NCBI GenBank assembly: GCA_022641835.1
Contig: CP048721.1
Coordinates: 1-64,000, forward strand
Direction of reading: 5' to 3'
Source: Petasospora fabianii
Taxonomy: Eukaryota; Ascomycota; Saccharomycetes; Phaffomycetales; Wickerhamomycetaceae
DNA: 64,000 bases
Part shown: piece after piece, positions 4,385 through 63,269 of the stretch
Position numbering within the stretch: the stretch's first letter is position 1
How the letters are laid out: every line of letters starts with the position of its first letter
Notes under the pieces: model-generated
The model's database searches: none
Told to the model about the DNA's origin: nothing
Seen by the model: only the letters and a program-made list of their open reading frames with translations
Program-made: the position numbers and the translations under genes

Positions 4385-4641
4385 TTTGCGACTTGAGAGG
4401 GGTATGCCAGTCGTAGGAAGGAAATCTCTTGGTAGTGGTGGTGTTTTATCTACTTGCGACAAAAGCCGTATCTTCGCGTCCTGTACGCGTCTTCCTCAAA
4501 AGGATGTCCATCGCCGCCGCTATAAGTCGCGGAGGACCTGGGAAAGGGTCGGGGTTAACAACTACACAACTACGGAGGAAGATCTAATTACGTTATCTGT
4601 AGTTAGTTCCATTGATATTGATGGCATTCTCTAAGGCAAAA

Positions 4642-6054
4642 TTACAAAGTCTTCTCAGTCAACTCAATGCTGTAGTCCTCCTTCAAGGTCTTGATGATTG
4701 GGTCGTTGATCTCTGGGGAGTATGGGGCAATCAAACCCTTCTTGACTGGCAATTCATCTCTCAAGATCAACTGGGAAGCAACAGCACATGGGGTACCAAC
4801 AAGCTTGGCCATAGAACTGTAGCCGGAGCCAGTTGGGGCACCGTAGTCGACGAGAGTAGACGTACGGGTCTCAGTAGTACCGTCAGCATTCTCAATGCCA
4901 AACTTGTGCTGCAAGAGAACCAAGTCTCTCTCACCCTTCTCCAACTGCAACATACCTTCGAAGAGAGCACACAAGGTGTCCAATGGGTTACCCTTTGGAA
5001 TGATCTTCTTATCGGACAACAAACCAAACCAGTTGAAACCGTCAATGATGGTCTTCTTGGCCTCCTCACTGGCGAACTTGGTCTTGGACTCAATAGCAGC
5101 GATCAAGTCTTCAGAGCTAGAGGACTTAGCACCCAAGTACTGGTAGAGAGCCTCGTTCCAGGCAATAGTCTTGGAGAAGACCTCGGACTCATCGTCCTTC
5201 AAGAGACCCAAGTCAACCAAAACCTTGATGAACTCTGGGAAACCAGCGAAACGCAAAGTACCACGAATGACAGTGTCAGCCTCTGGGATCTTGTACAACT
5301 CTCTGAAAGTGGTGGAGTCTCTGTTTGGGTAAGCAACCAAGTCACGCTCAGTGAACTCATTGATAGTGTATGGAGCAGTGTAACCCATCAATTCTGGGCC
5401 ATCAACCGTGACCTTTTCACCATCCTTGTAGAAAGTGGCAGAGTTTCTCAAGGCCAACAAAACACCTCTGGCAGACCAGGAGAACTTGTAACCCAATGGG
5501 TTGTTAGCATCCTCTGGGGCAACAAGACCACCACAGTAGGAAATGAAGGACTTGATCTTACCGCCAGCCTTGTGCACCTCATCGATGGTCTTAACAGCGT
5601 AAAGGTGGTCGAGACCTGGGTCCAAACCAATCTCGTTGAAAACAATGATGCCAGCCTCGTTGATCTGGTCCTCAAGCTCCTTCAAAGCTGGGGAGATGTA
5701 GGAAGTGGTGACAACGTTCTTCTTGTTCTTGATAGCAGACTTGACGACAGTGGCGTGGTAAATGTATGGGATCAAAGAGATGACAAGGTCGTGATCGGAA
5801 ACAGCAGCGTCCAACTGATCCTCCTTGGAGACATCGAGAGAGATGGCAGTGGCAACCTCGCCAGCAAGAGCCTTGGCCTTCTCGAGAGTTCTACAAGCAA
5901 CGGTGACCTCGACACCGTCAGTCTTGGAGAGAATATCAACGGTTGGTTTAGCGACGAAACCAGAGCCGAGCAGCAAAACCTTCCTGTAAAGAGGTTAGTA
6001 TTGGATCAGAAAGAGAGAGGGAGAGTTAAAGGATTCGCAAACATACTTGACCAT
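4642..6054 (-). CDS. LYS9: Saccharopine dehydrogenase (NADP+, L-glutamate-forming)
   Basis: LYS9 carries out the next-to-last step of lysine synthesis, condensing alpha-aminoadipate semialdehyde with glutamate to make saccharopine. The 449-residue product matches yeast Lys9 throughout: N-terminal Rossmann motif VLLLGSGF, VTVACRTLEKA, NEIGLDPGLDHLYAV and the C-terminal PYSPEINDPIIKTLK. The gene is split. Exon 1 is 6047-6054 (only 8 nt, ATGGTCAA), the intron is 5984-6046 (63 nt, donor GTATGT, branch point TACTAAC at 5994-6000, acceptor ACAG), and exon 2 is 4642-5983. Without splicing the protein lacks its start codon. CTG at 5971-5973 encodes a conserved leucine, which argues for standard decoding of CTG. 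Confidence 0.97.
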
Positions 6055-6227
6055 TGTGGGATGAATTGATGGGAATTGAGTCCTGTAGAAAGAGGTGGGA
6101 GTTTCGAGGATTGAAGAGTATGTGTGGTTTTTTCAAAGCTCTTCTTCGCTCGTCGGCCACCGGGCCGGCAGAACGATGACGAAGGCGATAGGACACCAAC
6201 TCCACAGGGAAGCTGTGGCCGATTGCG

Positions 6228-53525: not shown

Positions 53526-54944
53526 TTACCCTCTTCTTCTCGGATCGGAAATCTGCGCTGGTGGTTGCCATGGGTTGGCACCTTGAGCTTCATACCCATT
53601 GTTGTAGTAATCCTGTGACTGGCCCTGATACATGTCATAGTTGCTACTGACTAACTGTGTTCCATAAGCTGCGGTGGCAGCATCGTCCCACTCGGGACCA
53701 TATCCTATTTGTCTCTGATAATAACCATGCTGATGATACTGGTTCTGTTGTGGAGGATACTGCTGATAACGTCTCGGATCCACTGCGTCATGTTGTGGAT
53801 AACTGGCGTAACCATTATAGTTGTAGTCAGCAGGAGGTTGATGCCATGTGTCATGATTGTAGCTGTTCGAGTCGTACGGTTGTGATTGAATGACTGCGAC
53901 TGGGCCAGATGAAGCAGGATCAGGTTGTGGAGGTGGAGGAGGTGGTGGAGGTTTGATTTTCGGGATTGGGCCAGTATATGTTCTCTTGGACTTCTTCAAC
54001 TTGAAGATGTTTGGGGTTGGGTTCAGTATCTCCTGTTTCTTCTCTTTTTGATTGTTTTCCCCGGCCCTGGTCTTTAAAAGTCTACTCAGTCTCAGCTCTC
54101 TCTGTGCCTTCTTGGAAATTGCCTCTCTCTGTCTTGAGTTTGGACGCTTATTCTCAGAGACAGAGGACACCCTCATAGGTCTGGGTTCCTTCTCTGGACT
54201 AGAGCTGGTTCTCTTTGTTGCTTTGATTGGCTGGTCTCTCTCATCACCATCATCTCCTTCTTCAATGATTCGGGCCCTCGATCTCTTCTTCAATGGGGGT
54301 TTTGCGGCCTTAGGAGGTGATGTTTTCTTTGGTGAAACAGAAATGGCGACAGAAGGCTCCTTAGATGACTGAGATTTCACAGAAGTCGATACATCAGACT
54401 TGTTGGCTCTCTTTCTCGGCTCAACAGCCGTTGAAGTCTCAGACTTCTTAGACGTTTTCTTTGGCTCGACGACATTTGAGCCATCAGAGTTACTCAACAT
54501 CTTCTGTAACTCAATGGAAGCTGAAGCATTGGAGCCGTTAGATATTGTCCCTTGCTTTTCAGAAGTAGACGCCGTTGGTTTCCGTGATGGCCTCTTTGGT
54601 GATTCATCAGCAGACTTCCCTGGTGTTTTCGTTGACAAACTCTTCGGTGTTGTCTCTTGTTGGTTCAGTGTTGACTCTCCCGTTCTCTCAGATCCCTTCC
54701 TTGGTTGTTCAGCAGTCTCACTCAACTTTTGAGGCGCTTCTTCGTCCTTGCCCGGTGATTTCATTCCGATTGTCAGCTCCTTAATGAGCCTATTTGGCAT
54801 ATTGAGAGGAGAATCGTTGTGCTCTGTCGATGATCTGGTAGATCTCGTGTTGTGATTAACAGCAGGTTCCGTCTCTTCCTCATGGGAAAGCACCTTCGAT
54901 AGTGAGACCCCAGATCTTCCGGTGCGTCTTCTAACGGTCATCAT
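53526..54944 (-). CDS. Low-complexity basic ORF overlapping the end of the SET gene
   Basis: A 472-residue reading frame beginning at paired ATGs (54944, 54941) whose first 14 bases overlap the end of the SET-domain gene in the +1 frame. It is rich in Ser, Lys, Glu and Pro, with many SPK/TPK phosphorylation-like sites, a polyproline run KIKPPPPPPPPQPDP near residue 345, and a Q/Y/N-rich, prion-like C-terminus (380-472). The frame stays open upstream to 55073. I recognise no domain. It is either a separate gene starting inside the SET gene or the true C-terminal tail of the SET protein displaced by a frameshift. I see no good splice sites that would join them. Confidence 0.6.
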   Translation of the reverse strand: MMTVRRRTGRSGVSLSKVLSHEEETEPAVNHNTRSTRSSTEHNDSPLNMPNRLIKELTIGMKSPGKDEEAPQKLSETAEQPRKGSERTGESTLNQQETTPKSLSTKTPGKSADESPKRPSRKPTASTSEKQGTISNGSNASASIELQKMLSNSDGSNVVEPKKTSKKSETSTAVEPRKRANKSDVSTSVKSQSSKEPSVAISVSPKKTSPPKAAKPPLKKRSRARIIEEGDDGDERDQPIKATKRTSSSPEKEPRPMRVSSVSENKRPNSRQREAISKKAQRELRLSRLLKTRAGENNQKEKKQEILNPTPNIFKLKKSKRTYTGPIPKIKPPPPPPPPQPDPASSGPVAVIQSQPYDSNSYNHDTWHQPPADYNYNGYASYPQHDAVDPRRYQQYPPQQNQYHQHGYYQRQIGYGPEWDDAATAAYGTQLVSSNYDMYQGQSQDYYNNGYEAQGANPWQPPAQISDPRRRG

Positions 54945-56454
54945 CGTCACTCGGTTCTGAAACAGCTGCCTCCTCGAAATCCTCAGAGAGATCTGATGCG
55001 GAAACGAAGTCCTCGTCATCATCGTCATCTGTTTCGCTGTAGTAATCATCACCAATCTCCTCATTCTCGACATCAATAGCAGACCTTGTTCCAGATGGCT
55101 GGCCCTCCCCGCTAATTGTCTTCTTAGCGGCTTTCCTGGATTCCTTTTTCTTGTTGTTTATTGGTTCAGATATTGGCTCAGTTGGTGGCGAAACGGGAAT
55201 GCTTTCCTCGATAGTTGGTGCGGTCAGCACTGGTGGATCAGGTTTCTTACCAATTACACCACGACAGATCTTGGATTCACAGTAACATTTCTGTGGCTCA
55301 GAGTTTTCATACCATTCAAAGTTATAGTCGTAAGTGATCTCATCACCTGGATAGATTGGTCTTCTGGCAAAGAGACCAATTCTAGGCTCTTGGTTGACAT
55401 ACCATTTCTGCATCTCACAGTTTGGATCACAAGAGTGGTTGACAAATCTTGCAACTGAACCCCTGCGGCCTGCATCGATGACTAAAGTCTTTTCCATACC
55501 GAGAAAGTAGTACTTGGTCTCATTCTTGTAGATAGTACCAAGTCTCCGGTCAACCTCATCCAGATCAATGACCTCACCGGTGTACTCAACAATCAAGGAG
55601 TCAACGTTGTAAGACCGCACAGCAAAGAGACCCAGTCCCTTCTTTTCAGTGGGTCGCACTTCGTATCCCTGTGCAAAGAGATTGTTATTGTTGAGATCTT
55701 CAACCAAATTGGTGAAGCGACGATTTCCACAATCTTGATTACCGAAGGAGCAGTTATGGCTTGTACACTCATATTGAACGGAGCGATTGAGACAAGAATC
55801 AGAACAGTGTGTACCATTCCTGGATGCACAGTAACAAACTCTCCATGGTGTATTTCTTTTCTTGTTTGTATGCTCCACCAACCATTGGTTTTGCTTAAGG
55901 TTGTGCTTCCATTTGTAAACTTGGTTCTCATCGGCAACTGTTGGTGAGTATATGCCATATGGTAATTTGAAATCTTCCGTAGAGTTGATACGTCGGAGAC
56001 CCTCACCATCTGGAAGAGGGAAACTAAACCGTTTTCTATCATTCTCAGAAGCTGGCTTGTGAATGAGACCGGAACGAACCCAGAGTTTACCATCTAGCTT
56101 GAACTCTGTCGCTTCTTGCTTGATCTTCTCATCCTCTTCCTCTTCGTTTGCCTCATCCGCCGACGGAAGCTCATTAGACCAGTGGAGAATAGTAGCATTT
56201 TCAGTATCTTGTTCAGTGTATCTCTTCCATTCCACACATTCGTCGACAGCGGCTCTTATGATAGTATCGTCAGCGTCTGGGATAGGCGAGTTCTCAAAGA
56301 AATCAAAGACCAAGGACCATGCCTTACGTTTTTGTAAGGTACGGGAAGTTCTGGAGGGGTATCCTGGGTTGCTAAAAGTGCCCAGGCCCGAACTCGGGGT
56401 GCTCCTAGCGGAGTTCTTAGCGGAGTTCTTAGCAGAGCTGGCCCTGGTCACCAT
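54931..56454 (-). CDS. ASH1-like SET-domain histone lysine methyltransferase
   Basis: A 507-residue chromatin enzyme. Order of domains: disordered N-terminus with KNSAKNSAR repeats, a helical region (40-185), AWS zinc domain (about 205-250, CYCASRNGTHCSDSCLNR), SET (262-383) with FVNHSCDPNC at 337-346 and ITYDYNFEW, and post-SET (390-404, CYCESKICRG). AWS-SET-postSET marks the H3K36/ASH1L/NSD/SET2 group. The insert YYFLGMEKTLVIDAGRRGS resembles ASH1L more than SET2, and no SRI or WW domain is seen here or in the overlapping frame, so an ASH1-type enzyme is likely. S. cerevisiae has no such orthologue. It ends in an acidic tail EPSDDDDR at the frame overlap. Confidence 0.88.
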   Translation of the reverse strand: MVTRASSAKNSAKNSARSTPSSGLGTFSNPGYPSRTSRTLQKRKAWSLVFDFFENSPIPDADDTIIRAAVDECVEWKRYTEQDTENATILHWSNELPSADEANEEEEDEKIKQEATEFKLDGKLWVRSGLIHKPASENDRKRFSFPLPDGEGLRRINSTEDFKLPYGIYSPTVADENQVYKWKHNLKQNQWLVEHTNKKRNTPWRVCYCASRNGTHCSDSCLNRSVQYECTSHNCSFGNQDCGNRRFTNLVEDLNNNNLFAQGYEVRPTEKKGLGLFAVRSYNVDSLIVEYTGEVIDLDEVDRRLGTIYKNETKYYFLGMEKTLVIDAGRRGSVARFVNHSCDPNCEMQKWYVNQEPRIGLFARRPIYPGDEITYDYNFEWYENSEPQKCYCESKICRGVIGKKPDPPVLTAPTIEESIPVSPPTEPISEPINNKKKESRKAAKKTISGEGQPSGTRSAIDVENEEIGDDYYSETDDDDDEDFVSASDLSEDFEEAAVSEPSDDDDR

Positions 56455-57698: not shown

Positions 57699-58937
57699 AT
57701 GAAGCAAGCTCTCCACATTGTGAAGAGAGCTCGCAACTCATCGATCTGCTCGAACTGTCTCCAAGTACTGAAGCACAACAGCCATGTGAAGACTGGCATC
57801 TCCATTTACGCCAGCGGAGGCAGTACGATACACTTGTCTAATGACTTCTCCCATGGAACCTTTGGAACACGGCCGTTCTCCTCATCTCCAACAAGAACAG
57901 AACTAATCAGGACCAGGACGACTTCGTCAAAGGTTTCCAAACCAACGATACTGGAAACAAGTAATGGCCCTTTCTACTCTGTGGCCGTCGGTAGGGAACC
58001 TGGGATCTATACTACCTGGGATGCATGCCAGACCCAAGTCAAGTCGTTCCCTCATGCTCGATTCAAAAAGTTCAAAGATTATGCCTCTGCAAAGGCATTC
58101 TTGACAAGAGTCCCCGATGACTTTGAATCACACACGAGGAACCTTATACATTCACCACCAGTGTCAACTCCTACTCCTAAAGGGAAGCCAGTCTATGCAG
58201 TGTCATATGGCGATGACCAGCCCGGTCAAATATTTGACAGTTGGGCCGAATGTCAGGAAGCCATCATGAACAAGAAAGGCGTCACATTCAAGAAATTTGA
58301 AGATTTGGCCGCTGCTGCAGAATTCATCAAGGTTGAACCAAAACCTGAAGTATCAGAACATCACAGACAGATCTCAGTTGAGGAATTTCTGTCCAATAAC
58401 TCATTGCATGTCTTGCGGAAGCAGCAGGCTATGGCTCCCAAATATGTCTACGCAGATGGATCATTTACGAGAGGGTCAGATGGTAAGGTGAGAGCAGGTT
58501 ACGGTGTTTACTTTGGTGAGAATGATCATCGCAACGTTTCATCACCGTTGATTATGGATGAAGTGGACTCCTATATTGCTGAAGTTCACGCCGCTCGTGC
58601 TGCTTTGAAGCTCATATGTGCCGACATCAAGAGATACGATAATGGAGATGGTGACTATCTTGACAAGTATATTCTCATGACTGACTCTGAGACTGTGATC
58701 AATTTGCTCAACACATATGCCCCCCTGTGGTCTGATGCTGACTACGCTAAGAGACGCGCTGGTCAGGAGCTGAGGGATATTGTCAAAATGTTCAACTTTA
58801 TCAAGGATTGCTATGCTGAGAACCCAGAAGTGTTCGGTGATCATCGTTTTGAGGTGAAGTGGGTGAAGGGACATGCGGGCCATCCTGGAAATGAAATGGC
58901 TGATCGTCTAGCCAAGGAGGGTGCTAACGCCTCATGA
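57699..58937 (+). CDS. RNH1: RNase H1 with two hybrid-binding domains (array gene 1)
   Basis: RNase H1 cuts the RNA strand of RNA-DNA hybrids. The 412-residue protein has an N-terminal basic, serine-rich stretch ending RPFSSSPTR that looks like a mitochondrial presequence, two RNase H hybrid-binding domains (about 91-136, FYSVAVGREPGIYTTWDAC; about 164-210, VYAVSYGDDQPGQIFDSW), and the RNase H fold (about 248-412). The catalytic set is complete: D253 (ADGS), E295 (AEVHA), D329 (TDSE), H in WVKGHAGHPGNE and D402. It is the first of four co-directional RNase H genes. With array gene 4 it is the best candidate for the ancestral RNH1. Confidence 0.95.
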   Translation: MKQALHIVKRARNSSICSNCLQVLKHNSHVKTGISIYASGGSTIHLSNDFSHGTFGTRPFSSSPTRTELIRTRTTSSKVSKPTILETSNGPFYSVAVGREPGIYTTWDACQTQVKSFPHARFKKFKDYASAKAFLTRVPDDFESHTRNLIHSPPVSTPTPKGKPVYAVSYGDDQPGQIFDSWAECQEAIMNKKGVTFKKFEDLAAAAEFIKVEPKPEVSEHHRQISVEEFLSNNSLHVLRKQQAMAPKYVYADGSFTRGSDGKVRAGYGVYFGENDHRNVSSPLIMDEVDSYIAEVHAARAALKLICADIKRYDNGDGDYLDKYILMTDSETVINLLNTYAPLWSDADYAKRRAGQELRDIVKMFNFIKDCYAENPEVFGDHRFEVKWVKGHAGHPGNEMADRLAKEGANAS

Positions 58938-60353
58938 ACAGAGTATCTGCCGTAATTGCTAATTTATGACTTCATGAAGAGCAAAACTAATCTTACACGG
59001 ATTGATGGAGTCAGTTATCAACCTGGTCGAAAGCTTGTTTTGGGGCTGCTGCTACGGTTGATCTGCGGTTTCATGGGGGCGCTGGGCCCTTTCGTTTCGA
59101 CAGCTCCACAAGCGGCTTGCGTATGGACCAATGGACCGGCAGCGCATAACCTGCGACATCTTCAAACACTTGGTCTGATCTTTAACTCGGCTCTGAGTAG
59201 TCAAGTAATCTTAAAATATCTGCACTAATATGGTATTCTCAACTGTGGTGGCTGGAGTGTTCAGTGACTTCAAGCAAGAGCTCTTGCGGTTGTACCATGA
59301 CTTCACCGGCACAGAACAACATTCTAGCAGCAGCTCTGATATGATTGCCTCTTCAATGACTTTGCCAGATCAAACACCACCAGAACTTTGTGGAACTTTG
59401 CCAGATCAAACACGACCGGAACCTTGTGGAACAAATGATGAGTCCAAGAGTGTGATCACGGCTGAGAAAGTCGAGCAGTCCGATCCACAGCCACAACAGA
59501 AAGCAACGAGGAAGACGAAGAAACAAATGAAGGCTGAGAGAGCAAAAAAGGACCGTAACCTAAATATCAGAGCACTTGGTAAATGGAAGGTGTACACCGA
59601 TGGATCTTTCTCTCCATACCAAAAGAACGGTGGCTATGGTGTGTACTTCGGAAATGATGATCCTCGTAACATGTCCAGGTATCTTGATTACTGTCGTAAT
59701 AGCTTTGAAGCAGAGGTACATGCTATCAATGCAGGCTTAAATGCAATTTACACGGAGATTAAGAAGATCCGTAAAAAGGGGCGAGGTGAAATCCACAAGT
59801 ACGTGTTAGTGAGCGACTCGAAGGATGCTATCAGCGCCATTATCACCTGGCGAGTGTCTCCACCGTATGATTACCTGAGGCAAGTGCACGAGAAATACCA
59901 TGCAATCCGGACTTTCTATTTCAACCAATCTGAGGTCTTCTCTGTGCATGTTTTCGATATCTATTGGGTTCGGGGTCATTCTGGTGTTGAAGGTAACAAC
60001 AAGGCAGACAAGCTAGCCAAGCTTGGGCGTCTTGCTTACAGTGATCATTAGTTTTGATACTTGGAGGACATCCATTGTATCACATGACCATAGTAATGAT
60101 ATGCTAGCTTGATAGCACTGATGTTACATAATGAACCACCATCGTACGGAGACAGTAGTAATACTAGTAGACTCCGGTCTTAACTGACAGGTGTATAGTT
60201 ATTAAGTAACAAAAGTCTAGGAATCAGATATTGCTTCCTTATCAACAGACTAAAAGTTTTTCAACAGCTAAGCAGCAGGATCAAAGACATGAGGTAGGGG
60301 CCTTATCCTTACAAACGTGGGGACAAGTGAATAGTGAACGGTGAATAACAATT
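58935..60353 (+). repeat. Tandem duplication unit A
   Basis: A 1419-bp unit beginning at the TGA of array gene 1 (tgaacagagtatctgcc) and ending gtgaataacaat. It contains flanking non-coding sequence plus array gene 2. Its sequence is repeated in the next 1.68 kb, with close similarity in both flanks. Confidence 0.85.
59230..60051 (+). CDS. Divergent RNase H-like protein without hybrid-binding domain (array gene 2)
   Basis: A 273-residue protein. Residues 1-27 (MVFSTVVAGVFSDFKQELLR onward) have no counterpart in the outer RNase H genes. A disordered stretch with LPDQTPPELCGT duplicated (45-68) and a Lys-rich segment (92-115) lead to a C-terminal RNase H fold (118-273). The catalytic set is complete: D124, E162, D196, H in WVRGHSGVEGNN and D260. 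The GYGVYFGNDDPRN block ties it to its neighbours in the array, so it arose locally. With no RHBD, hybrid binding would depend on the catalytic domain and the basic linker. It lies in duplication unit A. Confidence 0.88.
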   Translation: MVFSTVVAGVFSDFKQELLRLYHDFTGTEQHSSSSSDMIASSMTLPDQTPPELCGTLPDQTRPEPCGTNDESKSVITAEKVEQSDPQPQQKATRKTKKQMKAERAKKDRNLNIRALGKWKVYTDGSFSPYQKNGGYGVYFGNDDPRNMSRYLDYCRNSFEAEVHAINAGLNAIYTEIKKIRKKGRGEIHKYVLVSDSKDAISAIITWRVSPPYDYLRQVHEKYHAIRTFYFNQSEVFSVHVFDIYWVRGHSGVEGNNKADKLAKLGRLAYSDH

Positions 60354-60618
60354 TGAACAGAGTATCTGCCATAATTGCTGATTCATGATTGCAAGAAAGA
60401 CTAATGACCTGATATTAGTTTTGTATTTGGACTACTGCCACGGTCGATTTGAGGTTTCATTGGGGGCGCCGTGCCCTATAGTTGCGACAGCTCCACAAGC
60501 GGCTTGCGTATGGGCCAATCGACCGGCAGCGCATATAACCTACGGCATCTTCAAACACTTGGTCTGATCTTTAACTCGGCTCTAAGTAATCAAGTAATCT
60601 TACAATATCTGCACTAAT
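60052..60618. other. Inter-RNase H spacer (end of unit A, start of unit B)
   Basis: A 567-bp gap. The first 300 bases resemble the region 61714-62030, and the last 265 resemble 58938-59229, so the duplication junction at about 60353/60354 falls inside it. No separate gene. Confidence 0.75.
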
Positions 60619-61713
60619 ATGGTATTCGCAACTGTGGTGGCTGGAGTGTTCAGTGACTTCATGCAAGAACTCTTGCAGTTGTACAACTACTTCGCCGGCT
60701 CAGTAGAATATTCATTAACTCCATATAACTCTCCTCTTTTCTCCAATTCTTTGAGAAGTTCACAATCAGGAATACCTCAAAGTCTATTGTCAATCTCTGG
60801 CCCAAAATCATCACTAGCACAGCTTTTTGTCCCTTTCATCAAGTCCTGTGAAGATGTTCGGGAAACATTCAATGTCACCTCTAATGTTACTGCTGCTTCA
60901 ATTACCATTCCAGACCAAGCACCATTGGATCTATGTGATACTAATGAGAAGTCCAAAAGTGTGATCTATGCTAAGGAAGTGGAACAGCTCAATTCACAGC
61001 CACAAAAGAAAGCGAAGAAGAAGAAGCGGGCCATGACTGCTGTGCCAGTTACCACTACAGATCACACTCCATCGAATCTACGCAGTAATAAAGATAAGCT
61101 CAAGAGTGTGTTCTATGCTGAGGAAGTAGACAAGTCCAGTCGACAGCCAGAGAAGAAAGCAAAGAACAAGACGAAGAAACAACTAAAGGCTGAGAGAGCA
61201 GAAAAGGACCGTAACCTAAATATCAAAGCACTCCGTGAACAGTGTGTGTTTACCGATGGTTCTTACTCTCAGTATGAAAATAACGGTGGCTATGGTGTGT
61301 ACTTCGGAGCTAACGACCCTCGTAACATGTCCGACTATCTTGATTACTGTGAAGATTGCTTCGAGGCAGAGGTACGTGCTATCCATGCAGGTCTAAATGC
61401 CATCTTAAGGGAGATTAGGAAACTTCGTGAAAAGGGGGGAGGTAAAATCAGGAGGTATTTGATTAAAAATGACTCACAGTCTGCTGTGAACGCTATTATC
61501 CACCGATTAACAACGGATAGTATTGGAAAGCAACAGATCAGATGGGCGAACAAGACGTATCACGTAATCCGGGCTTTCTATTTCAATCACTCTGAAATCT
61601 TCTCTGGACATGTTTTCGATATCATTTGGGTTCAGGGTCATTCTGGTGTTGAAGGTAACAACAAGGCACACAAGCTAGCTAATTTAGGACGTCTTACTTA
61701 TAGTAATCATTAG
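60619..61713 (+). CDS. Divergent RNase H-like protein with D-to-H change (array gene 3)
   Basis: A 364-residue paralogue of array gene 2. The N-terminus MVFATVVAGVFSDFMQELLQ is shared, followed by about 70 extra residues. A module of acidic/polar sequence plus a lysine cluster occurs twice (about 99-137, SVIYAKEVEQLNSQPQKKAK; about 149-188, SVFYAEEVDKSSRQPEKKAK). The RNase H fold spans about 205-364. Three catalytic acids remain (D213, E251, D285) and the loop histidine in WVQGHSGVEGNN is kept, but the last aspartate is H351 (NKAHKLA). In E. coli RNase HI the same D134H change is reported to leave activity, so loss of function cannot be assumed. Confidence 0.85.
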   Translation: MVFATVVAGVFSDFMQELLQLYNYFAGSVEYSLTPYNSPLFSNSLRSSQSGIPQSLLSISGPKSSLAQLFVPFIKSCEDVRETFNVTSNVTAASITIPDQAPLDLCDTNEKSKSVIYAKEVEQLNSQPQKKAKKKKRAMTAVPVTTTDHTPSNLRSNKDKLKSVFYAEEVDKSSRQPEKKAKNKTKKQLKAERAEKDRNLNIKALREQCVFTDGSYSQYENNGGYGVYFGANDPRNMSDYLDYCEDCFEAEVRAIHAGLNAILREIRKLREKGGGKIRRYLIKNDSQSAVNAIIHRLTTDSIGKQQIRWANKTYHVIRAFYFNHSEIFSGHVFDIIWVQGHSGVEGNNKAHKLANLGRLTYSNH

Positions 61714-62030
61714 TTTTGATACTTGGAAGACATCCATTGTATCACATGACCAGAGTAATTACGTGCTAGTTTGGTAGCACTGATGTTACATAATGAGCCA
61801 CCATCGTATGGAGACAGTAGTAGTACTAGTAGACTGGCCTTGAGTGACACGTCTATAGTTATTAAGTAACAAGAGTCAGATATCGCTTGCTTATCAACAG
61901 ACTAAAGGTTATTCAACAACTAAGCGGCAGGATCAAAGAGATGCGGTAGGGGCCATATTCACACAGATGCGGTAGGGGCCACACTCACACACAGACGTGG
62001 GGACAAGTGAATAGTGAACGATGAATAACA
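61714..62030. other. Spacer before array gene 4 with 26-bp tandem repeat
   Basis: A 317-bp gap matching the 3' flank of array gene 2. It contains two near-identical 26-bp units (61940-61965, 61966-61991; gatgcggtaggggcc core) where unit A has only one. Confidence 0.7.
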
Positions 62031-63269
62031 ATGTCTCTAACAAGTAGATTATTCATTGATTTGTCATCTGTCATTACAGCAGTAGAAATGGCTAAGAAGC
62101 AGGTGTACTATGCTGTGCAGAGAGGACAGTCAAGCGGTGTGTACAGCAGCTGGGATGATGCAAAAGCTCAGGTGAATGGTTACAAGGGAGCAGTCTATAA
62201 GAAGTTCAGTACCCTTGCAGATGCACAGTCCTTTGTCAATGGATCTGGGTATGGCAACAACAGCTCGAACAGTGGCTCAAGGAGTAACGTTGGCTCCAGC
62301 TCGGGCTATAATCAAAGCTATATTTCAGGGGGTCATAACACCTCGTATAACGTCTCAAAGCCAACAGCGAAGCCAAAGCCAACTTACTCCGAGTCTCAAT
62401 TCAACAGTTTTGCTGCTCCAAGCAGTAAAGTTGACAATCAGTACTCAGGATCATATAATAACGTCTCCAGGAGAGTTAATGGTCAAAGTTTTAACAAGAG
62501 TACTACCACTGCTGCCAAATCAAAAGTTAAGGCTCCAGCGTATTATGGTGTCAATTACAGCAATGGTGAGTCCAAGATTTGCAATTCATGGCCTGAGTGT
62601 TTAGCTGCTGTTAAGCATCAAAGAGGTGTCACTTACAAGAAATTTGACACTTTGGAACAAGCGAAATTATTCACATCTAAAGGTGCTGCTCCTGCTTTGA
62701 ATTCATCTGAGAGAGACGCCGTTGAGGAACAGTATTTGAAGGACAGATCAATAACTCAACTTCAGGAACAAAGGAGCGCTCCAGTGCAGAGAATATACAT
62801 GGATGGATCATATATGAATAACAAGGCTGGATATGGAATATATTTTGGTGCTGATGACCCAAGAAACGTTGCTGAACCGGTTCACGCTAAGGAGATTGAT
62901 TCGTACGTTGCAGAGGTTTATGCTACAAGAGGTGCTTTAAAGCTAATTCACGATGAGATGATAAAGTTCAACAACAAGGATATTGATATTATGGGTAAGT
63001 ACACTCTTGCTACGGATTCCGAGACAGCTATTGGACTTCTTGACAACTATGCATCAACATGGAAGGATTCTGAGTTTGATAATAGAAAAGCTGGTGGTGT
63101 GCTGAAGGAGGCAGTCAAGCTGTATAAGGAGATCAAAGACTTTTACCATAAGAACTCTGCCATATTTGATGATCATGAATTCAAGATTGAATGGGTAAAG
63201 GGTCATGACGGTATTGAAGGTAATGAAGGAGCTGACCGCTTGGCCAAGTTAGGTTCAATGAAGTCATGA
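62031..63269 (+). CDS. RNase H1 with two hybrid-binding domains (array gene 4)
   Basis: A 412-residue RNase H1. Two hybrid-binding domains (about 25-70, VYYAVQRGQSSGVYSSWDDA; about 170-216, YYGVNYSNGESKICNSWPEC) are separated by a long Ser/Asn/Gly-rich linker. The catalytic domain (253-412) has D258, E295, D329, H in WVKGHDGIEGNE and D402. A second ATG at codon 20 (62088) begins MAKKQVYYAV, the conserved start of nuclear RNase H1. The first 19 residues (MSLTSRLFIDLSSVITAVE) could be a weak mitochondrial leader, so two protein forms are possible, as known for animal RNASEH1. Confidence 0.94.
   Translation: MSLTSRLFIDLSSVITAVEMAKKQVYYAVQRGQSSGVYSSWDDAKAQVNGYKGAVYKKFSTLADAQSFVNGSGYGNNSSNSGSRSNVGSSSGYNQSYISGGHNTSYNVSKPTAKPKPTYSESQFNSFAAPSSKVDNQYSGSYNNVSRRVNGQSFNKSTTTAAKSKVKAPAYYGVNYSNGESKICNSWPECLAAVKHQRGVTYKKFDTLEQAKLFTSKGAAPALNSSERDAVEEQYLKDRSITQLQEQRSAPVQRIYMDGSYMNNKAGYGIYFGADDPRNVAEPVHAKEIDSYVAEVYATRGALKLIHDEMIKFNNKDIDIMGKYTLATDSETAIGLLDNYASTWKDSEFDNRKAGGVLKEAVKLYKEIKDFYHKNSAIFDDHEFKIEWVKGHDGIEGNEGADRLAKLGSMKS

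Follow-up and report, generated by a model that had tools for sequence, protein, structure and literature searches.

Four RNase H genes in a tandem array

In a 64,000-nucleotide stretch of DNA from the yeast Petasospora fabianii (GenBank assembly GCA_022641835.1, contig CP048721.1, positions 1 to 64,000 of the forward strand; hereafter the window), four genes for RNase H lie side by side between an MRP2-like and an SDH4-like gene. RNase H1 removes RNA from RNA/DNA hybrids, and the features used to recognize it here were its catalytic domain (Pfam RNase_H, PF00075) and its N-terminal hybrid-binding domain (HBD, PF01693). The genes, designated A to D, are four co-directional open reading frames (ORFs) on the + strand, all intact from ATG to stop and encoding 412, 273, 364, and 412 residues, respectively:

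57699–58937, + strand: gene A, full-length RNase H1 with an N-terminal extension, a putative mitochondrial presequence (PF01693 twice, PF00075; composition)
59230–60051, + strand: gene B, RNase H lacking HBDs (PF00075; predicted fold)
60619–61713, + strand: gene C, RNase H lacking HBDs, with an expanded linker (PF00075)
62031–63269, + strand: gene D, full-length RNase H1 with two HBDs, probable nuclear enzyme (PF01693 twice, PF00075)

All four products scored above the PF00075 cut-off of 25.8 bits (A, 71.7; B, 58.8; C, 54.1; D, 59.8). PF01693 matched two stretches in each of A and D, while a search with this profile up to an expectation value (E) of 1 gave no match in B or C. The array is real, and the sequence-only reading that first drew attention to it, which described four co-directional RNase H genes between MRP2 and SDH4, the outer two with the full RNase H1 layout and the inner two without HBDs, is borne out by the ORFs and by both Pfam profiles. 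Its view of a local family with two architectures also holds, and the two groups can now be ordered in time, the A/D pair being old and the B/C duplication younger. A blastn search of the array against the 64-kb window (E 0.01) returned matches inside the array only. No report of tandem RNase H1 genes in a yeast was found among the matches listed in a search of titles and abstract openings of the open-licence literature.

The inner genes derive from a duplicated unit

Repeats and their junctions delimit two copies of a unit that spans the interval between A and D, each copy with its own internally repeated linker:

58935–60353, + strand: duplication unit copy 1, containing B, from the A stop to a copy of the D-start edge (direct repeats, junctions)
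60354–62032, + strand: duplication unit copy 2, containing C, up to the edge of the first ATG of D (direct repeats)
59359–59430, + strand: 36-nt tandem repeat in the B linker (direct repeat family)
60910–61171, + strand: internally duplicated C linker with a 147-nt spacing (direct repeat family)

Because 58935–60353 recurs as 60354–62032, with unit ends only a few bases from the A stop and the D start, the inner gene was duplicated in tandem together with both of its flanks. The duplicated unit that gave B and C is 1.4–1.7 kb long and runs from the A stop to the D start. In the catalytic domain, B and C share 61% identity (97/158), and each shares 33–38% with A and D. The linkers of B and C expand via different in-frame internal duplications.

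Divergence between the two copies of the unit is uneven, with 12.5% of 553 flank sites differing versus 34.6% of 188 third positions in 59323–59887 (Fisher p = 1.3e-10), and the unevenness over 829 near-neutral sites was matched by none of 5000 shuffles. At the third positions of 59518–59580, only 2 of 21 differ, and the contrast does not run strictly between flank and gene. Since silent sites are also affected, selection on the protein alone is insufficient to account for this pattern, and partial gene conversion would explain the mosaic unit. A possible alternative is that mutation was unequal or that the flanks are constrained.

B and C have the marks of selected genes

The ratio of nonsynonymous to synonymous divergence (dN/dS) between B and C, calculated by the Nei-Gojobori method with 300 resamplings, was 0.49 over the 156 codons of the catalytic domain (bootstrap range 0.29–0.81) and 0.61 over the whole gene (0.40–0.83). 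The three coding indels that separate the two genes (156, 111, and 6 nt) are all multiples of three, as against one of the seven in the flanks, and codon preference was best in frame for all four genes. With D as the outgroup, B and C carry nine unique changes each, as expected for equal rates. The first 31 codons of B and C, which differ by 2 silent and 10 amino-acid changes and have low codon scores, are less sure as coding sequence. Equally low scores were found in 10% of 389 31-codon windows drawn from 19 reference ORFs and in the first 31 codons of 8 of these 19 ORFs, so the low scores are no evidence against translation of this segment. A search for a degenerate HBD, in which the N-termini of B and C were compared by profile with the four HBDs of A and D, gave a probability of 0.1 on a 0–100 scale, and in a tblastn search against the window (E 1) these N-termini matched each other only.

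In structural models of B and C built from four-row alignments, the 10-residue blocks of the catalytic domain had predicted local distance difference test (pLDDT) values of 76–96, the final residues excepted, and most of the preceding sequence was below 50. The B model, with catalytic blocks at pLDDT 80 or above except for the last residues and an adjoining helix at 61–77, had human RNase H1 (2qkk) as its best Foldseek match (E = 1.6e-9; template modelling score 0.64 by target length and 0.37 by query length; root-mean-square deviation 6.4). The purifying selection on B and C that the dN/dS values show argues against their being relics. By tree and motif, they appear to be RNase H1-derived paralogs, placed outside standard RNase H1 because neither of the two has an HBD. 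A role in the dosage of R-loop control, put forward in the sequence-only reading, looks less likely for B and C, which are missing both HBDs and some of the substrate handle and share 33–38% identity with the outer genes in the catalytic domain.

Catalytic residues and the loss of substrate contacts

The four catalytic domains were compared with human RNase H1 and with 56 control sequences, 55 prokaryotic and 1 viral, left after 4 short matches were removed from 60 loci; all control counts apply among the matches listed. Viral contigs contributed 1 locus from 56 pattern matches, and genome contigs at least 59 loci from at least 593 matches. D10, E48, and D70 are present in all four genes. D134 is kept in A, B, and D, all three of which thus hold the full D-E-D-D set, and is H in C (three of the four residues); it is D in 56/56 controls. 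C also has N at residue 138, a common state in the controls (19/56). His124 of the mobile loop is present in 4/4 genes; the search patterns included this loop and did not include T-N-N, so the controls are not independent for His124.

The T-N-N/Q motif ahead of E48 contacts the hybrid substrate. T43-N44-N45 is absent from all four genes, its place being taken by D-S-Y in the two outer genes, N-S-F in B, and D-C-F in C ([DN][SC][YF]), while the controls have T43 in 55/56, N44 in 56/56, and N45 in 54 (the remaining two have Q). Human RNase H1 keeps N44, and both S. cerevisiae RNH1 and E. coli RNase HI keep T-N-N. The exchange would have preceded the split between A and D. In the basic protrusion (the C-helix and its loop), the alignment shows B to be short by 9 residues and C by 7, and A and D retain both the length and the tryptophan of the human enzyme. 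For the altered metal site of C, the E. coli D134N and D134H mutants, reported to have reduced but retained activity and increased thermostability (PMC4032109), offer a comparison.

Genes A and D as candidate compartment-specific enzymes

The domains of the two outer genes are as follows:

57966–58112, + strand: HBD 1 of A (PF01693 residues 91–134)
58188–58330, + strand: HBD 2 of A (alignment; PF01693 in two stretches)
58422–58937, + strand: catalytic domain of A (D-E-D-D and His124 present; T-N-N replaced by D-S-Y)
62100–62240, + strand: HBD 1 of D (PF01693, alignment, match to 1qhk)
62541–62676, + strand: HBD 2 of D (alignment; PF01693 in two stretches)
62760–63269, + strand: catalytic domain of D (D-E-D-D and His124 present; T-N-N replaced by D-S-Y)

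W, K, K, and F are invariant in the alignment of all four HBDs, and the first HBD of D matches the solved RNase HI HBD 1qhk (E = 1.7e-10), which we take to be a yeast domain. A and D are related over almost their entire length. Their catalytic domains are 49% identical (80/163) and silent sites are saturated, which points to old paralogs.

In A, about 90 residues precede the first HBD; the first acidic residue does not occur before position 49, six K/R fall within the first 40 residues, and there is a single R-P-F-S site at 58–61, which resembles a presequence cleavage site. D has no such extension. These features provide a lead toward a mitochondrial A, and D is the probable nuclear enzyme. 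The two in-frame ATGs of D, at 62031 and 62088 (M20), are 19 codons apart, and as the HBD begins 6 residues past M20, we think that the nuclear form starts there. Two such ATGs would suit dual-start targeting, an arrangement known from mammalian RNase H1. An intron linking the D start to an upstream exon (CTAAC at 62037, TTACAG ending at 62079) was considered and rejected, its spacing being 38 nt versus 10 nt in the intron of a LYS9-like gene elsewhere in the window. Between the C stop and D, none of the seven donor patterns scanned for is present.

Phylogenetic placement

In a tree with human RNase H1, one viral row, and 19 of the 55 prokaryotic rows, the four catalytic domains formed one group (support 100/99), within which B grouped with C (97/93) and A with D (94/77). 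With a provisional S. cerevisiae Rnh1 sequence and 4 prokaryotic rows, the four genes plus S. cerevisiae were joined at 95/95. It is likely that all four genes originated within this lineage, and a single-lineage origin is favoured because the motif exchange is common to all of them.

The viral row is a protein from a viral contig (L001, 2824–3591) that combines one HBD and an RNase H domain with a DUF5710 domain at its C-terminus; its ORF lies between those for a thymidine kinase and an IMPDH/GMP reductase. The contig probably belongs to a large DNA virus that encodes an RNase H1 of its own.

Neighbouring genes and genetic code

Both genes flanking the array are on the − strand. The upstream, MRP2-like gene is a Ribosomal_S14 gene whose best solved match is uS14m/MRP2 of 5mrc (E = 1.3e-43), and the downstream, SDH4-like gene is a CybS gene by Pfam. 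In the MRP2-like gene, the two CTG codons each align with a leucine of 5mrc uS14m, so that a CTG-Ser code was rejected and the standard code was used. The window also holds an INO1-like gene, with 1jkf as its best solved relative; we take 5mrc and 1jkf to be S. cerevisiae entries.

At 53526–56454 (− strand), a SET2-like ORF with SET and AWS domains (54931–56454) overlaps out of frame with a 515-residue ORF (53526–55073), for which no Pfam match was found at E 0.001 and which may be either a separate gene or part of a split gene. The LYS9-like gene (Sacchrp_dh_C; 4642–6054, − strand) has an apparent intron directly after its first codons, with donor GTATGT, TACTAAC, and an acceptor 10 nt further on, and is covered by a 482-residue antisense ORF (4621–6069, + strand).

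Alternative explanations for the inner genes

B and C could be decaying, functionless duplicates that are still open because they are young. This is unlikely. It would fit the loss of the HBDs and of part of the handle, the absence of D134 from C, and the fairly high dN/dS; both ratios, however, are below 1 throughout their bootstrap ranges, every coding indel is in frame, and codon preference is in frame overall for both genes. Moreover, under random uniform substitution the B frame stayed open in only 1.6% of 5000 trials when 12.5% of sites were changed, and in 17% when 5% were changed. We give about the same low weight to the idea that only B, or only C, is functional and that the other persists through gene conversion and linkage. 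In its favour, B has D-E-D-D and His124, C carries H at residue 134 and N at residue 138, the uneven divergence suggests conversion, and with A as the outgroup C carries 14 unique changes versus 7 in B (p = 0.13). This asymmetry is gone with D as the outgroup, both proteins retain the predicted fold, and N at 138 is shared by a third of the controls.

Capture of a retroelement or viral RNase H beside RNH1 would account for two proteins that, like HIV-1 (human immunodeficiency virus 1) RNase H, have no HBD and a shortened handle, and one viral-contig relative of the array does exist. We regard such an origin as very improbable, given that B and C group with A and D and not with the viral row (in trees built without retroelement RNase H rows), that they share with A and D both the exchanged motif and an insertion ahead of the WVxGH strand, and that the viral relative keeps S-N-N and an HBD of its own. 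An assembly artefact is more improbable still, as the units differ by 12.5% in the flanks and by 35% at mid-gene third positions and the A and D catalytic domains are 49% identical, so that no gene resembles a misassembled duplicate or allele of another.

A proposed division of the RNase H1 family

The explanation that we favour, at somewhat better than even confidence, is that RNH1 has been split in this yeast into a possibly mitochondrial A, a nuclear D, and two stripped paralogs that would need a tether or partner. Serial tandem duplication would have built this lineage-specific family from an RNH1 with two HBDs and a catalytic domain already lacking T-N-N. That ancestor would have given rise to the old pair, with A carrying or gaining a mitochondrial presequence and D as the nuclear enzyme, and one copy, minus both HBDs and part of the basic protrusion, would have founded the B/C line. 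Later, the entire A-to-D interval would have been duplicated in tandem to produce B and C, after which gene conversion may have homogenised the unit ends while the gene middles diverged. A and D would be ordinary hybrid-gripping RNases H in two compartments, and B, less surely C, an RNase H with a poor grip on its substrate, tethered by its basic linker or a partner. The sequence itself shows the anatomy of the array, the kinship of the four genes, the duplication unit, the selection, and the residue changes; compartments, catalysis, partner dependence, gene conversion, and the early date of the motif exchange are parts of this account that we infer. The S. cerevisiae catalytic domain, unlike that of the fly, is reported not to bind hybrid alone (PMC7657459), so loss of the HBDs would be costly.

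Several observations weigh against parts of this explanation. The fly enzyme without both HBDs is reported to turn over more than 2-fold faster and still to bind R-loops (PMC7657459), so the lack of HBDs does not by itself imply a weaker RNase H1. The final two 150-nt segments of B have codon scores of −0.05 and −0.01, the excess of unique changes in C given above depends on A as the outgroup, and of the 37 residues common to human RNase H1, A, and D, 28 remain in B and 23 in C. The flanks are not uniformly similar, the block 58975–59047 being 42% diverged. The tree program warned that long branches meet and that the composition of B is unlike the rest, and once S. cerevisiae Rnh1 was added the four genes alone were grouped at 66/92, in 68% of 200 bootstrap trees. 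The division by compartment, already suggested in the sequence-only reading, gains some support from the extension of A, its lack of early acidic residues, its R-P-F-S site, and the absence of such an extension from D; its composition and amphipathicity do not set A apart. The SET2-like neighbour, of a nuclear family, likewise has six K/R and no acidic residue in its first 40 residues, and the helical moment of A, 0.36, is not above those of B (0.48), C (0.44), or the long form of D (0.41), all the forms other than A ranging from 0.32 to 0.48.

Compared with S. cerevisiae RNH1, the P. fabianii family differs in having four linked genes, two of them without HBDs, and an exchanged T-N-N. A and D resemble that enzyme in having two HBDs (PMC7657459) and a catalytic domain, and A differs from it in its presequence-like extension, the S. 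cerevisiae enzyme having no targeting sequence according to a review (PMC9181182). Several RNase H1 genes are also found in Arabidopsis, where AtRNH1A, B, and C are divided among nucleus, mitochondria, and chloroplast; the available part of that account, compared by description only, mentions neither a tandem array nor an HBD-less member (PMC8330923). HIV-1 reverse transcriptase has an RNase H fold without the basic protrusion, as B and C seem to have, and its RNase H is reported to be inactive when expressed alone (PMC3443672). The need of B and C for a tether would parallel the dependence of that domain on the rest of reverse transcriptase. HIV-1 RNase H structures also match the B model, human RNase H1 matches it better, and the HIV-1 domain, unlike B and C, belongs to a viral polymerase. 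At the fourth carboxylate, C agrees with E. coli RNase HI D134H (1kvb), which, unlike C, is an engineered mutant; C also lacks residues of the basic protrusion. A further, tentative and rather doubtful possibility is that B and C represent a novel type of eukaryotic RNase H1 paralog, without any of the substrate grips checked (HBDs, basic protrusion, T-N-N), kept by selection and active only where a partner or the basic linker brings them to a specific hybrid or RNA, and that C, whose metal site is altered, may sense or regulate hybrids instead of cutting them.

The array is real and holds an unusual RNase H1 family at one locus, made up of an old full-length pair and a younger stripped pair retained by selection, for which division of A and D by compartment and tethered or specialised action of B and C serve as a working model. 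In animals, a single RNase H1 is reported to serve both nucleus and mitochondrion (PMC8330923), and in S. cerevisiae RNase H1, not RNase H2, is reported to limit mitochondrial R-loops, which rise on its loss (PMC4214602), so the two roles are hard to separate. If the working model is true, a yeast with separate nuclear and mitochondrial RNase H1 genes would allow these roles to be deleted one by one. The T-N-N exchange in all four genes is a change at positions nearly fixed in the controls, and the inner genes would show, as a natural experiment, how far an RNase H can give up its hold on the substrate while selection still keeps it.

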